A stretch of 64,000 nucleotides of DNA, taken from NCBI GenBank assembly GCA_944387895.1, contig CALXGQ010000008.1, positions 1-64,000 of the forward strand, written 5' to 3'. The notes beneath the pieces are model-generated. The model was given only the letters and a program-made list of their open reading frames with translations, searched no databases and was not told the DNA's origin. This document shows, piece by piece, positions 5,666 through 60,025 of this stretch. The position numbers and the translations under genes were made by a program. The first letter of the stretch is position 1. Each line of letters starts with the position of its first letter. The stretch is from an uncultured Clostridia bacterium (GTDB lineage: Bacteria > Bacillota > Clostridia > Oscillospirales > QAKW01).

Positions 5666-6474
5666 AACTGACTGAAAAAAAACTCTTTTTGCTTGATATG
5701 GACGGAACCATTTATCTGGATCACGAATTATTCGACGGCACCCTTGATTTTTTGACATATGTGCAAAGCATCGGCGGACGAGCAATGTATCTGACGAACA
5801 ACAGCTCCAAAAGCGTTTGGAAATATATCGATAAATTAAACGATATGGGTATTCACGCCCAGGAAGAAGATTTTATTACCTCCGCTCAGGCTACAGCGCT
5901 TTATCTGCTCAAAACCCATCCGGAGGATCTTCTTTATGTATTCGGAACAAATGCATTCAAGGATGAATTATGTCGATATGGATTGAAAATTACCGATAAG
6001 TTAGAGGACGAGGTTCGTTGTCTGGTCATGGGCTTTGATACGGAGCTGACCTTTCAGAAGCTGGAGGACGCCTGCATTTTGCTGAACCGCGGCGTAGACT
6101 ACATCGCCACCAATCCGGACTGGGTTTGCCCAACGTGGTATGGGTTTGTGCCGGATTGCGGATCCGTATCTGAAATGCTGTATCATGCGACAAAGCGCCG
6201 CCCGCAATTCATCGGAAAGCCGGAGCCGACCATGATCGATCTGGCAATTGAAAAAAGCGGTTTTAAAAAAGAAGAAGCTATTATATTGGGTGATCGATTG
6301 TATACGGACATCGCCAGCGGCAGCAATGCAGGGATCGATACCGCGCTGATGCTGAGCGGTGAATCCACGATGGAAGATGTGCGCGCTTTTCAGGGAAAGG
6401 CGCCAACCTATATCTTTGAAAATATCCGCTGCTTCTTAAACGCCCTTCAAAATCCCGAAAAGCCGGTCTTTTAA
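5662..6474 (+). CDS. HAD-IIA family phosphatase, NagD-like
   Basis: The 270-residue haloacid-dehalogenase phosphatase has motif I LDMDGTIYLD (nucleophile and acid Asp near residues 11 and 13), motif II LTNNSSKS, motif III Lys in GKPEPTMIDLA, and motif IV ILGDRLYTDIASG. A C2 cap lies between motifs II and III. Relatives dephosphorylate sugar phosphates, nucleoside monophosphates or damaged glycolytic side products; the substrate here is unknown. It overlaps the GNAT-like gene by four bases and is followed by its own terminator. Confidence 0.88.
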   Translation: MKLTEKKLFLLDMDGTIYLDHELFDGTLDFLTYVQSIGGRAMYLTNNSSKSVWKYIDKLNDMGIHAQEEDFITSAQATALYLLKTHPEDLLYVFGTNAFKDELCRYGLKITDKLEDEVRCLVMGFDTELTFQKLEDACILLNRGVDYIATNPDWVCPTWYGFVPDCGSVSEMLYHATKRRPQFIGKPEPTMIDLAIEKSGFKKEEAIILGDRLYTDIASGSNAGIDTALMLSGESTMEDVRAFQGKAPTYIFENIRCFLNALQNPEKPVF

Positions 6475-52644: not shown

Positions 52645-54075
52645 TTATACTTTAATCTCTATGTCAACGCCCAGATAGGCTTTGTTTTTTTCCAAAACAG
52701 GGCGTACATACCCGGCAAGAAACTCTTCCGTCTGTTCCGGAGCGAATCCGATAAAGTTCCGGACATTCAGGATGGAATCAAGCTCTTCCTGCGTCAGCCC
52801 GAAGCGGGGATCCTCCAAAATCCGATCCAAAAGATCGTTGGGACATCCCTCCAGTTTGATCTTCTTTGTGACCGCAACGGAATGCTCGCGGATCGCCTCA
52901 TGGATCGCCTGCCGGTCCCCTCCTTTTTTGACGCAGTACATCATGATGTTTTCCGTCGCCATAAAGGGCAGCTCTTCCTTTAAATGGGCGTCCATCACCT
53001 TCGGATAAACCGAACCTCCGGAGATCACATTGATGTAAAGCGACAAAATGCCGTCGATCGCCAGAAAGGCCTCCGGAACGCTAATCCGCTTATTGGCGGA
53101 ATCGTCCAGCGTCCGCTCCAGCCATTGGGTCGCCGCAGTCATGGCCGGATTCAGCGCGTCGATCATCACATAACGCGCCAGAGAAGCGATCCGCTCGGAA
53201 CGCATGGGGTTACGTTTATAGGCCATGGCGGAGGAACCGATCTGCTTTGCCTCAAAGGGCTCGTCAAATTCCTTCATATGGGAAAGAAGACGGATATCTC
53301 CGGCGAATTTGCAGGCGCTTTGCGCGATCCCCGAAAGAACAGACAAAACAAAGTAATCCTCTTTACGGGTATAGGTCTGGCCGGAAACGGGCATCACCTT
53401 TTTGAAGCCCATTTTTTCTGCGATTTTTTTCTCCAGCGCGGTCACTTTCTGATAGTCCCCGTCAAACAGCGACATAAAGCTGGCGCAGGTTCCCGTCGTT
53501 CCCTTGCACCCCAGCAGACGAAGAGAGTCCATCGCCTGATCCACGCGCTCCAGATCCAGCAGAAGATCCTGGATCCAGAGGGTCGCGCGTTTTCCCACGG
53601 TCGTGGGCTGCGCGGCCTGAAAATGCGTATATGCCAGCGTAGGCACGTCCTTATACTTCCCGGCGAACTCCGAAGCGGCGTAAATGGCGTTGATAAGCAG
53701 GCGCTTTACCTCTTCCAGTGCTTCCCGCATCAGAATGATATCGGTATTATCACCCACGTAGCAGGACGTTGCCCCCAGATGAATGATCGGCTTAGCGGAA
53801 GGGCAGGCGTCGCCGTAGGTATGGACATGCGCCATTACGTCGTGGCGCAGCTCCGCTTCATATTCTTTCGCACGGGCGTAGTCGATATCATATATATGTT
53901 CCTTCATTTCAGCGATCTGCTCGTCGGTGATATCCAGGCCAAGCTCCTTTTCGCTTTCCGCAAGGGCAATCCAAAGCTTGCGCCAGGTTGAGAACTTATG
54001 ATCCGCCGAAAAGATCGCCTGCATTTTTTTGCCGGCATAGCGGGTGCAAAGGGGATTTTCGTAGAATTGACTCAT
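52645..54075 (-). CDS. purB: Adenylosuccinate lyase
   Basis: PurB releases fumarate from SAICAR and adenylosuccinate. The 476 residues have ATSCYVGDNTD, AHVHTYGD, and the fumarase-superfamily signature SSAMAYKRNPMRSE near residue 285 with the mobile catalytic loop. The ATG at 54075 is seven bases from GAGGAGG; the ATG two codons earlier is too close. It is twelve bases after pyrG. Confidence 0.96.
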   Translation of the reverse strand: MSQFYENPLCTRYAGKKMQAIFSADHKFSTWRKLWIALAESEKELGLDITDEQIAEMKEHIYDIDYARAKEYEAELRHDVMAHVHTYGDACPSAKPIIHLGATSCYVGDNTDIILMREALEEVKRLLINAIYAASEFAGKYKDVPTLAYTHFQAAQPTTVGKRATLWIQDLLLDLERVDQAMDSLRLLGCKGTTGTCASFMSLFDGDYQKVTALEKKIAEKMGFKKVMPVSGQTYTRKEDYFVLSVLSGIAQSACKFAGDIRLLSHMKEFDEPFEAKQIGSSAMAYKRNPMRSERIASLARYVMIDALNPAMTAATQWLERTLDDSANKRISVPEAFLAIDGILSLYINVISGGSVYPKVMDAHLKEELPFMATENIMMYCVKKGGDRQAIHEAIREHSVAVTKKIKLEGCPNDLLDRILEDPRFGLTQEELDSILNVRNFIGFAPEQTEEFLAGYVRPVLEKNKAYLGVDIEIKV

Positions 54076-54087
54076 CGCCATTCCTCC

Positions 54088-55704
<1,617 letters not shown>

Positions 55705-55711
55705 TCAAGCG

Positions 55712-56299
55712 TCAATCGTCATACATTTTAATAATGTTGCGGGCGATCTCTCCGCGTTTTACGCAATGATCCATCGCCGTTTTTTCGATATATCGGTGCG
55801 CGTCCTGCTCCGACATCTTCAAATGCTCGATCAGCAGGCATTTCGCCCTGTTTACCATACGAAGCTCTTTCATTTTTTCTTCCAGAGTCCAGTTTCTCTC
55901 TTCCAGAGAACGCATTCTTGCCTGGGAAGCGACAAGTAGCTTGACCGCCTGAAAAACACTCTGGCGGCTCACCGGCTTTGCCAGAACAAACACGCCGTAG
56001 TGCTCCATTTCATAGGAAATCTGTTCATAAACGTCATTTTTCACAAATAAAAGCACGCCGGCTCCGCTGTGCTCGACGACGGAAAGCGCAAGCTGCGTTC
56101 CAAATTCATCTTTCAGCGGGGTGTCTATGATCACAATGTCCGGCGGAGCTTCCGACAAGACCCTGCGCGCCTCGCCTGCGCTGGTCGCGGTCTGAAAGGG
56201 ATGAAACTGGCCGGATGGCAGCAGCTCGGTAAAATACCGGCTCGCATTTTCCGAAACAGTAACCAGCAAAACGCTGGTACTGATTGAATCATGAAACAT
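55712..56299 (-). CDS. ANTAR-domain antiterminator with a degenerate receiver domain (NitR-like)
   Basis: The 195 residues comprise a receiver-like domain (about 8-125) and a C-terminal ANTAR RNA-binding domain (about 135-195; VNRAKCLLIEHLKMSEQDAHRYIEKTAMDHCVKRGEIARNII). In the receiver the phospho-acceptor Asp (DIVIIDTPLKDEFG) and Lys (FVLAKPVS) are present, but the usual acidic pair at the start reads VTVSEN and the switch Ser/Thr position is Val (LLFVK). Canonical phosphorylation is therefore doubtful. ANTAR proteins act by preventing terminator formation in leader RNAs; NitR of a solventogenic Clostridium acts at glnA. It is 21 bp after the glnA-like gene. Confidence 0.9.
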   Translation of the reverse strand: MFHDSISTSVLLVTVSENASRYFTELLPSGQFHPFQTATSAGEARRVLSEAPPDIVIIDTPLKDEFGTQLALSVVEHSGAGVLLFVKNDVYEQISYEMEHYGVFVLAKPVSRQSVFQAVKLLVASQARMRSLEERNWTLEEKMKELRMVNRAKCLLIEHLKMSEQDAHRYIEKTAMDHCVKRGEIARNIIKMYDD

Positions 56300-56320
56300 C
56301 TGGCCCTCTCCTTTCGGGAA

Positions 56321-57517
56321 TCAGGAATGAAGAAAATCCACAGGCAAAACGTCATGTAAAAACGCGCTGTTCTCGGCCAGGGCCCTTGCTTCGCCCAGCG
56401 ACAGAGGAAGCGTTTCCAGCGCATCTGTCACCGCGGGAGGCGCCGTAAAGAGATTCAGGTTCACCGGCTCCGGCGGAGTCATGTTTTTTTCCACGCCGTC
56501 CAGCCCGGCATAAATCAGCAGGGCGTATGCAAGATAGGGATTGGCGGTCGGATCCGGAGAGCGCAGCTCGATCCTGCAGGGGTTTTTATGAGAAGCGGGA
56601 ATACGAATCAGCTGGGAACGATTCTCCGGCGACCAGGATATATACTTGGGCGCCTTCATCTCGCCGAATCTGCGGTAGGACTGCTCGGTGGGATTGAAAA
56701 ATACGGTGATATCCCGGATATGATGCAGGATCCCGGCCAGAAACGCCGGCGTGTGATCCACCGAATCCTCGGAATGAACGGAAATATTGATGTGCATCCC
56801 GTTTCCGCTGCTCGCCGGGAGCGGCTTGGGATCAAAGTCCGCATAAAGGCCGTTGCGCCTGGCGATCGTTTTAACGACCGCCTTGAAGGTAACCGCATTA
56901 TCGGCGGCCGAAAGAGGATCGCTGTATTTGAAATCGATCTCCTGCTGCCCCGGCCCTTCTTCATGATGAGAGCTCTCCGGATGGATTCCCATATCCAGCA
57001 GCGTAAAGCAGATCTCGCGCCGGACATTCTCGCCGCAGTCTTCCGGAGCAATATCCATATATCCGGCCGTATCAAACGGTTTGAAGGTCCGGTTTCCTTC
57101 TTCGTCTGTTTTAAAAAGGTAAAATTCAAATTCCGTTCCGATGTTGCAGGTCAGCCCTTTAGCCGCCGCCCGGGCCACCGCGTCTTTCAGGATCCGGCGT
57201 CCATCTTTCTCAAAGGGCGTGCCGTCGGGATATAAAATGTCGCAAAACATCCGCACAACTCTGCCGTTGGTCGGTCTCCAGGGCAAAATACAAAGCGTCG
57301 AGGGATCCGGGCGCAGAAACAGATCGGAATGAAGCTCATCGCCAAATCCCAAAACGGCGGAGGCGTCGAAAGAAATACCGTCTGAAAATGCGCGTTCAAG
57401 CTCCGCCGGCATGATGGCGATATTCTTCTGATTGCCATAGATATCGCAAAAAGCAAGACGGATAAATTTGACGTTTTCCTCTTCAACAAAGGTCATGACA
57501 TCCTCATAGGTATACAT
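56321..57517 (-). CDS. GSI-type glutamine synthetase homologue, short form with altered flap
   Basis: The 398 residues cover the beta-grasp domain (about 1-95; EENVKFIRLAFCDIYGNQKNIAI) and the catalytic barrel: metal ligands in IGTEFEFYLFK and SHHEEGPGQQEIDFKY, substrate His in SGNGMHINISVH, NRSQLIRIPASHK and ELRSPDPTANPYLAYA. Two oddities: it ends about 35-45 residues before the usual GSI C-terminus, and the flap EAP reads MKAP (Lys288 for the ammonia-deprotonating Glu). The Bacillus feedback Arg (R62) region is also different. It may be a weak enzyme or a glutamine sensor. The ATG at 57517 has AAGGAGG upstream. Confidence 0.88.
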   Translation of the reverse strand: MYTYEDVMTFVEEENVKFIRLAFCDIYGNQKNIAIMPAELERAFSDGISFDASAVLGFGDELHSDLFLRPDPSTLCILPWRPTNGRVVRMFCDILYPDGTPFEKDGRRILKDAVARAAAKGLTCNIGTEFEFYLFKTDEEGNRTFKPFDTAGYMDIAPEDCGENVRREICFTLLDMGIHPESSHHEEGPGQQEIDFKYSDPLSAADNAVTFKAVVKTIARRNGLYADFDPKPLPASSGNGMHINISVHSEDSVDHTPAFLAGILHHIRDITVFFNPTEQSYRRFGEMKAPKYISWSPENRSQLIRIPASHKNPCRIELRSPDPTANPYLAYALLIYAGLDGVEKNMTPPEPVNLNLFTAPPAVTDALETLPLSLGEARALAENSAFLHDVLPVDFLHS

Positions 57518-57665: not shown

Positions 57666-57747
57666 GTGAAAGGCCATTGAATTTTTCTTTTGATTTTCCC
57701 GTTTTTTTGGGCAAAAACACCAAATGAAAATTTTTTTCGATTTTGCA

Positions 57748-57776
57748 TTGACAAATCCAAAAAGCGAGAGTATAAT
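57748..57776 (+). promoter_or_regulatory. SigA-type promoter of glnN
   Basis: A perfect TTGACA (57748-57753) and TATAAT (57771-57776) at 17 bp spacing. The start would be near 57783, giving a 150-nt leader with two terminator-like stems. Confidence 0.85.
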
Positions 57777-57785
57777 GCAGATATT

Positions 57786-57912
57786 GAAACGGCAATGATG
57801 TCGGGAAATCATTTTTCCTGTATCTGCCGTTTCTTTCATTTTATGCATCGAAAGCGGCAATGGGGTCGTGGAGCATGGGATTGCTTCACCCTCATTGCCG
57901 CTTCATTTTTTG
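57786..57912 (+). promoter_or_regulatory. glnN leader: two hexaloop hairpins, each overlapping a terminator-like stem
   Basis: Hairpin 1 is CGGC-AATGAT-GTCG (57790-57803); its CGGC lies inside the arm GAAACGGCA (57786-57794), which pairs with TGCCGTTTC (57825-57833) before TTTCATTTT. Hairpin 2 is CGGC-AATGGG-GTCG (57855-57868); its CGGC lies inside GCGGCAATG (57854-57862), which pairs with CATTGCCGC (57893-57901) before TTCATTTTTT. Both hexaloops have A at 1 and G at 4, the ANTAR signature. Each hairpin and its terminator exclude each other, so ANTAR binding would permit readthrough into glnN. Confidence 0.65.
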
Positions 57913-57931
57913 AAAGAGAGGTTATCGTAAA

Positions 57932-60025
57932 ATGAGCAAAGTATCTGAAATTTTTGGTGAAAACGTCTTTGGCGATTCCGTGATGAAGGAGCGGCTGCCC
58001 AAGGAAACATACAGGCAGCTTCAACGCACCATCAAAAACGGCCGCCGGCTGGACAGCGCCGTTGCGGCGGTAGTAGCGAACGCGATGAAGGACTGGGCCA
58101 TTGAAAAAGGCGCAACTCATTTTACCCACTGGTTCCAGCCGTTGACCGGCGTGACCGCGGAGAAACACGACAGCTTCATCTCCCCCTGCGGCGACGGAAA
58201 AATCATCATGGAATTTTCCGGCAAAGAGCTGATCCAGGGCGAGCCGGACGCTTCCTCCTTCCCCTCCGGCGGACTGCGCGCCACCTTTGAAGCCCGCGGA
58301 TATACTGCATGGGATCCTTCCTCCTATGCCTTTATCAAGGATAACGTATTGTGCATCCCCACGGCCTTCTGTTCCTATAGCGGCGAGGCGCTAGACCGCA
58401 AGACCCCCCTTCTCCGCTCCATGGAAGCGATCAATAAGCAGGCTCTGCGGGTTCTGAAGCTTTTCGGTAACGACGACGTTACCGCCGTCCGCACGACGGT
58501 CGGCCCGGAGCAGGAATATTTTCTGATTGATAAGGACGTTTACGACCAGCGCAAGGATCTGATTTATACCGGCCGTACCTTGTTCGGCGCAAAACCGCCG
58601 AAGGGTCAGGAACTGGAGGATCATTATTTTGGCTCCATCAAACCCCGGGTTCAGGCCTTTATGAAGGATCTCAACGAAGAGCTGTGGAAGCTGGGCATTT
58701 TAGCCAAAACCGAGCACAACGAGGTTGCCCCCGCCCAGCATGAGCTGGCTCCCGTTTTTTCCACAACGAATATTGCGGCGGATCACAACCAGCTGACGAT
58801 GGAGATGATGCAGAAGGTCGCCGGAAAGCATCATATGGTCTGCCTGCTTCATGAAAAGCCCTTTGCCGGCGTCAACGGCAGCGGAAAGCACAACAACTGG
58901 TCCATCTCCACCGATACCGGGATGAACCTTCTGGAGCCGGGCGAAACGCCTTACGAGAACGCGCAGTTTCTTCTGTTCCTCTGCGCCGTTATCAAAGGCG
59001 TGGACGAATATCAGGATCTGCTGAGAATCTCCGTTGCTTCCGCGGGGAACGATCATCGTCTGGGCGCAAACGAAGCGCCTCCCGCCGTTGTTTCCATTTA
59101 TCTCGGCTCCGAGCTGACGGAGATTTTGGAATCCATTGAAAACGGCACCGCCTACGACGCAAAAGAAAAAGATCTGCTGAAGATCGGCGTTCATATGATG
59201 CCCCGCTTCCCCAAAGATACCACCGACCGCAACCGCACCTCGCCCTTTGCGTTTACCGGCAATAAATTCGAGTTCCGGATGCTTGGCTCTGCCCAGGCCG
59301 TTTCCTGCGCCAACGTCGTGCTGAACACCGTTGTGGCGGAAGAGCTCAAGCAGTTTGCCGACGCGCTGGACGGCGCGCCTGATTTCGATACCGCGCTTCA
59401 TGATCTGATCAAAAAGACCATAGCCGATCATAAGCGTATCATCTTCAACGGCAACGGCTACGACGAAGCCTGGCTGGTAGAAGCGAAAAAGCGCGGACTT
59501 TTGAATCTCACCTCCACGCCGGATTGCCTGCCCTATGTTCTCCATGAGAAAAACGTCAAGCTCTATACCGACCATAAAATCTATACAAAGACGGAAATTC
59601 AGGCGCGCTATGAGGTTTCCTGCGAGAACTACTGCAAAGTCATCCGTATCGAAGCGCTCACCATGCTGGATATGGCTAAAAAGGACATTCTGCCCACCGT
59701 CAGCAAGTTCACCGGCGAGCTGACCGAAGCCGCTCTGGCCAAGGCTTCCCTTTCCGACTCTTTGGATTGCAGCTACGAAAAAGAGCTGGTGGAGAAGCTC
59801 AGCCGCCTGAACGCAACGGCCTATCAGAAGGTCAAGGCGCTGGAGGAAGCCGTTTTGGGAGCAGACGATATTGTCGAAAGCAGCGCTCTTTGCCGCTACT
59901 ATAAAGACTCCGTATTTGCGGCGATGAGCGAGCTGCGCATCGTTGTGGACGAGATGGAAACCCTCACCGCAGCGTCCAGCTGGCCTTATCCCTCCTATGG
60001 CAAGCTGCTCTTCAGCATCAAATAA
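57932..60025 (+). CDS. glnN: Type III glutamine synthetase
   Basis: GlnN makes glutamine from glutamate, ammonia and ATP. The 697 residues match GSIII length: the family N-terminus ([20 protein letters not shown]), THWFQPLTG, the catalytic block [35 protein letters not shown] with the substrate residues, and [20 protein letters not shown]. The metal Glu and His and the flap-equivalent parts look intact, so this is the likely main synthetase of the region. It has its own promoter and a probable ANTAR-controlled leader. The hairpin-bearing gap to asnB suggests a shared transcript. Confidence 0.96.

Follow-up and report, generated by a model that had tools for sequence, protein, structure and literature searches.

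Putative tandem ANTAR attenuators with one hexaloop each in the glnN leader of an uncultured Clostridia bacterium

Known ANTAR attenuators and the glnN leader

In the dual-hexaloop leaders of eut (Enterococcus faecalis, EutV), nasF (Klebsiella oxytoca, NasR), and amiE (Pseudomonas, AmiR), short-stem hexaloop hairpins with A at loop position 1 and G at position 4 (A1/G4) exclude an intrinsic terminator, and do so in nitrogen-related leaders under the control of an ANTAR antiterminator (PMC3369931, PMC8934654). Here, we describe a leader that shares these features, the ANTAR antiterminator being putative, upstream of the type III glutamine synthetase gene glnN of an uncultured Clostridia bacterium. 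It lies on contig CALXGQ010000008.1, of which positions 1 to 64,000 were analyzed (“the window”). Unlike eut, nasF, and amiE, this leader and its homologs have one hexaloop per terminator, placed at the very start of the RNA, and have neither an upstream recruiting hairpin (P1) nor a short linker; leaders with two loops have a terminator for each. We regard the glnN leader as, very probably, two autonomous transcription attenuators in tandem, each with one hexaloop and each controlled by ANTAR.

In the published view, an attenuator requires two adjacent hexaloops, P1 to recruit the ANTAR protein and P2 to antiterminate. The smallest unit that an ANTAR protein (EutV) binds in vitro is a single hexaloop, and the EutV structural paper calls the role of single hexaloops an open question (PMC8934654); here, single hexaloops lie inside attenuators. 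ANTAR attenuators on nitrogen genes are already known, and having several per transcription unit is not new either, since Desulfotomaculum acetoxidans has 13 predicted ANTAR attenuators in 6 transcription units of nitrogen metabolism (PMC3369931). Like the present one, such predicted regulons combine several attenuators in one regulon or transcription unit and have ammonium transporter and glutamine synthetase targets, but they come from a dual-hairpin model that is, by design, blind to single-hexaloop elements (PMC3369931). A NitR-type ANTAR antiterminator linked to glnA is mentioned for solventogenic Clostridium, and antitermination of ammonia assimilation genes was proposed (PMC4676874). 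The linkage of an ANTAR gene to glutamine synthetase genes is common to both systems, and the RNA sites of NitR possibly overlap with the element described here. Our literature search, which did not extend to the primary NitR papers, found no description of single-hexaloop attenuators or of a glnN-ANTAR link of this kind.

The leader and its gene comprise the following features:

57748-57776, plus strand: sigma70-type promoter of glnN (TTGACA at 57748-57753, 17-nt spacer, TATAAT at 57771-57776; 12/12 consensus match)
57790-57803, plus strand: hexaloop hairpin 1, CGGC-AATGAT-GTCG, beginning ~7-9 nt past the predicted transcription start
57786-57843, plus strand: intrinsic-terminator-like stem 1 (57786-57833) with T-rich tail (57834-57842), -25.2 kcal/mol
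57855-57868, plus strand: hexaloop hairpin 2, CGGC-AATGGG-GTCG
57850-57911, plus strand: intrinsic-terminator-like stem 2 (57850-57904) with T run (57906-57911), -36.5 kcal/mol
57932-60025, plus strand: glnN, putatively regulated gene encoding a type III glutamine synthetase of 697 aa (Pfam GSIII_N, E=9e-83)

One hexaloop per terminator

An initial annotation, made from the sequence alone, had described these two hairpins as paired ANTAR-type hexaloops. We find both where it placed them, 51 nt apart and each with A1 and G4. No other C-G–closed A1/G4 hexaloop (stem of at least 4 bp) overlapping a stem with a T run behind it occurs on either strand of the window. The 5' arm of each terminator stem overlaps its hexaloop, and folding places the hexaloop 5' arms in the long stems 57786-57833 and 57850-57904. 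Each hairpin and its own terminator thus exclude each other, as had been proposed. Folding of the leader RNA (57783-57931), a check that the annotation had suggested, gives two long stems with T-rich sequence at -64.5 kcal/mol, compared with -36.6 on average for shuffled sequences (z = -7.9). In isolation, the hexaloop hairpins are weak (~-4 kcal/mol each). Because the terminators outweigh them in folding energy, the default state should be termination. The T-tract behind terminator 2 is ATTTTTT. At gathering score, Rfam finds only tRNAs in the window and no glutamine riboswitch or other known family; relaxed thresholds give no credible match at 57700-57960.

These folds suggest how the leader might work. 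With transcription beginning shortly before hexaloop 1, the 3' complement would by default capture each hexaloop 5' arm to form the terminator, and most transcripts would end near 57843 or 57911. Under nitrogen (glutamine) shortage, the ANTAR protein encoded beside glnA would bind each emerging hexaloop and hold it as a short hairpin, allowing polymerase to pass. Two modules in series would multiply two read-through probabilities and could thereby give a tighter off state. Alternatively, the two terminated leader RNAs of ~55 nt might act as a sponge that titrates the ANTAR protein, as EutX/Rli55 does. EutV can indeed be sequestered by hexaloop-bearing RNAs, but the elements found here sit in cis, directly before genes. 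In addition, the loop should be hidden in the terminated RNA because the terminator stem, at -25 or -36.5 against ~-4 kcal/mol, locks the hexaloop arm. We consider a sponge highly improbable.

Hexaloops are conserved in homologous leaders, their absence from which the annotation had named as a refutation. Among 90 glnN leaders from 147 related genomes, 48 have at least one C-G–closed A1/G4 hexaloop on a stem of at least 4 bp, compared with 0.06 per leader in dinucleotide shuffles; A1/G4 was imposed by the scan, and the evidential weight lies in the excess over shuffles. Modules were then kept if the loop had A2 and a purine at position 5 and if the stem adjoining it had one of three sequences. 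This left 67 modules in 46 leaders, 25 with one module and 21 with two. In the minimum-energy folds, 66 of the 67 modules have the hexaloop arm paired to a 3' arm further downstream. Compensatory changes, which had been suggested as a test, are found in both structures. Terminator pairs covary, with double-sided changes in 9/12 pairs, as do the hexaloop stem pairs (32 double-changed cells versus 10.9 in shuffles), although stem pairing was in part already demanded when the modules were selected, and this second count should be read with caution. A promoter matching at least 9/12 consensus positions precedes the element in 43 of the 46 leaders, mostly at the same distance. As a genome-wide signature of the element, the pattern GGCAANGNNGTC is useless alone (45 matches versus 37 for the reversed control).

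The annotation had further proposed that one ANTAR pair is split over the two modules. As in canonical dual-hexaloop leaders, both window loops are A1/G4 hexanucleotides on stems of at least 3 bp. A canonical second hairpin overlaps an intrinsic terminator; here, each hexaloop overlaps its own. Canonical tandem hairpins are also joined by a linker of ~5-12 nt, where the window has 51 nt. If a single dual site were nevertheless stretched over the leader, hexaloop 1 would serve as P1, recruit an ANTAR dimer, and pass it to hexaloop 2 (P2), and the modules would only act jointly. This reading would apply the published eut recruitment model, and both loops are present in the window and in 21 of the 46 hexaloop leaders. 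The remaining 25 leaders, however, have a single module. Where there are two, the loops lie 61-169 nt apart, an unconstrained spacing that makes a split pair unlikely because lengthening the eut linker cripples antitermination: induction is drastically reduced at 14 nt, and antitermination is abolished by an additional 20 nt. Partner hexaloops also occur at chance levels. Within 40 nt of the 67 modules, a second A1/G4 hexaloop was found 2 times under strict criteria (1.3 expected from shuffled flanks) and 12 times under loose criteria (12.7 expected). Furthermore, the first loop starts 14-17 nt past the -10 box in 39 of the 43 leaders with a clear promoter, so no upstream P1 hairpin fits. With single-module leaders, no room for P1, and partner hexaloops at chance, each module looks self-sufficient, as would befit a complete attenuator with a single hexaloop. 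A series of two independent gates agrees better with these data than does a split pair, which we consider unlikely. A positive control gave no canonical dual hexaloops near the Tyr-type ANTAR genes of three genomes (G045, G115, and G071; see below), either within 20 kb or by the eut consensus.

A third fold had also been put forward, in which the terminator 1 3' arm (57826-57833 region) pairs with the module 2 5' arm (57850-57859). This pairing arises because both modules share the same 5' arm. It can form, at ~-12 kcal/mol, but is much weaker than terminator 1 (-25) or terminator 2 (-36.5), and a three-state switch might in principle use it to change which terminator forms. The 21 two-module leaders show no sign of selection for it. 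Pairing is no better within leaders than between them (-11.9 versus -12.0, P=0.92), and it is weaker than module-1 pairing in 19/21. The third fold is therefore not supported as a selected feature, and a three-state switch has hardly any probability in our estimate.

Co-occurrence with ANTAR genes

The ANTAR gene and its neighbor lie upstream of the glnN promoter on the opposite strand:

55712-56299, minus strand: ANTAR-domain protein with degenerate receiver, probable antiterminator (Pfam ANTAR, E=4e-16; REC below cut-off)
56321-57517, minus strand: glnA (type I glutamine synthetase), immediate upstream neighbor of the ANTAR gene and candidate sensor partner

The glnA start was taken as the ATG read from 57517, the reading frame being open up to 57607. 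The genome of the window encodes an ANTAR protein, as expected of an ANTAR-regulated attenuator in the broad sense, and the gene is the only match of its kind found there. The initial assignment of the hexaloops to the ANTAR type is strengthened by the related genomes, where hexaloops in glnN leaders are tied to ANTAR genes. A leader could be read in 77 genomes: hexaloop and ANTAR occur together in 46 and are both absent from 17, while ANTAR occurs alone in 14 and the hexaloop alone in none (P=5.4e-9). At class level, ANTAR is present in 20 of 23 genomes with strong element matches (P=3e-4); both P values lack phylogenetic correction, and kinship inflates their significance.

Genus g44 provides a natural loss case. 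Genome G080 has no ANTAR gene by domain and protein search, whereas its sisters G065 and G105 have both ANTAR and hexaloop. In the G080 glnN leader (L012, 1420-1475), the terminator is kept and the hexaloop stem has decayed to a two-pair remnant, GTACGC-AAAGGT-GCCAGC. These observations bear on the possibility that the leader holds ordinary tandem terminators, which insulate glnN or yield short RNAs, and that the hexaloop match is incidental. The leader does fold into two strong terminators. Against this stand the A1/G4 loops with C-G closing pair far above shuffles, the compensatory stem changes, the near-perfect ANTAR association, the fixed promoter distance, the recurrence before nitrogen genes described below, and the decay in G080. 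We regard ordinary terminators as very unlikely.

Besides the kinship effect on the P values, several observations weigh against autonomous ANTAR attenuators. In eut, both hexaloops and a short linker are necessary. The T-tract behind the terminator 1 stem, TTTCATTTT, is imperfect. The strict scan of the glnN leaders that were read gives no hexaloop for 14 ANTAR genomes. Several of these have glnN behind asnA, and in G042, G018, and G060 the element precedes asnA; in G024 and G129, a 3-bp version is seen by eye. Conversely, G090, G191, G161, and G263 have element matches but no ANTAR match. G161 is 83% complete, the other three are 93-100% complete, and incompleteness may not explain all of these exceptions. 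The G263 match is without a hexaloop by the strict scan.

The presumed cognate ANTAR subfamily differs from EutV, NasR, and AmiR in mostly lacking the phospho-Asp and in having His in place of Tyr164, the EutV residue that stacks on G4 of the hexaloop. Among 31 aligned ANTAR proteins, the phospho-Asp of the receiver is kept in 5, and the Tyr164 position is His in 28. The three Tyr-type proteins are EutV-like and retain the phospho-Asp. The window protein keeps Asp59, lacks the acidic pair, and has His at the Tyr164 position; the EutV-type combination of a phosphorylatable receiver and a G4-contacting Tyr is absent from it. Control by phosphorylation is doubtful because the receivers are mostly degenerate and the window protein is without the acidic pair.

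AmiC gates AmiR, and feedback-inhibited glutamine synthetase gates GlnR and TnrA. The glnA gene directly adjoins the ANTAR gene in 18/30 loci, and GlnA would be a natural candidate sensor for the ANTAR protein. By analogy, we tentatively propose that single-hexaloop, promoter-proximal ANTAR attenuators might run a clostridial nitrogen regulon in which GlnA, as a glutamine sensor, rather than phosphorylation gates degenerate-receiver ANTAR proteins. This wider proposal is possible rather than probable.

Recurrence before other nitrogen genes

The covariance model R1, built on the module, matches 57850-57907 in the window, the window genome's own leader having been part of the training alignment. 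Elsewhere in the same genome, a one-module attenuator (TGAGGC-AACGGC-GCTTCG) lies right before amt (L198; G000 contig C5 ~5861-5906, minus strand). In other Clostridia (L199-L216, L319-L347), the element precedes amt, gdhA, asnA-glnN, asnB, pyrG, purC, purA, and guaA, with two modules before gdhA and before purC; gene names in these genomes come from reading translations and from tblastn with the window's and fetched proteins. Two cultured Lachnospiraceae with an ANTAR gene also have it: Claveliimonas monacensis, with two modules before glnN, and Herbinix hemicellulosilytica, with one module before asnA-glnN. This recurrence implies a shared regulon, which would respond to nitrogen or glutamine.

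A conserved family with one loop per terminator, in natural one- and two-module versions, opens the question of single hexaloops to direct tests. For many gut Clostridia, cultured strains among them, it further supplies a signature, overlooked by dual-hairpin models, with which to search for a nitrogen regulon.

One further model match in the window genome (C30:46075), beside a Spo0A-like gene, is without a hexaloop and was taken as an ordinary terminator. The same genome encodes a second GlnN paralog, 61% identical (contig C29, 29338-31419), whose leader (L031) has a promoter-proximal terminator-like hairpin without a hexaloop. The window scan, covering both strands, found no hexaloop attenuator upstream of glnA.

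Around the leader, glnN is followed by genes for asparagine synthase B and NAD synthase. On the minus strand (52645-57517), glnA, the ANTAR gene, pyrG (CTP synthase), and purB run in the same direction with short gaps.

Other hexaloop attenuators were seen in further settings. In C. monacensis, one precedes a small open reading frame (L315, ~1509) that may encode a Nif11-type leader peptide, judging by its resemblance to such peptides. Two others lie beyond obvious nitrogen assimilation, both before genes whose functions were guessed from sequence: a possible chemotaxis or sensor gene in G082 (L215, ~217) and a possible phosphoenolpyruvate-synthase-like gene in G042 (L208, ~184).
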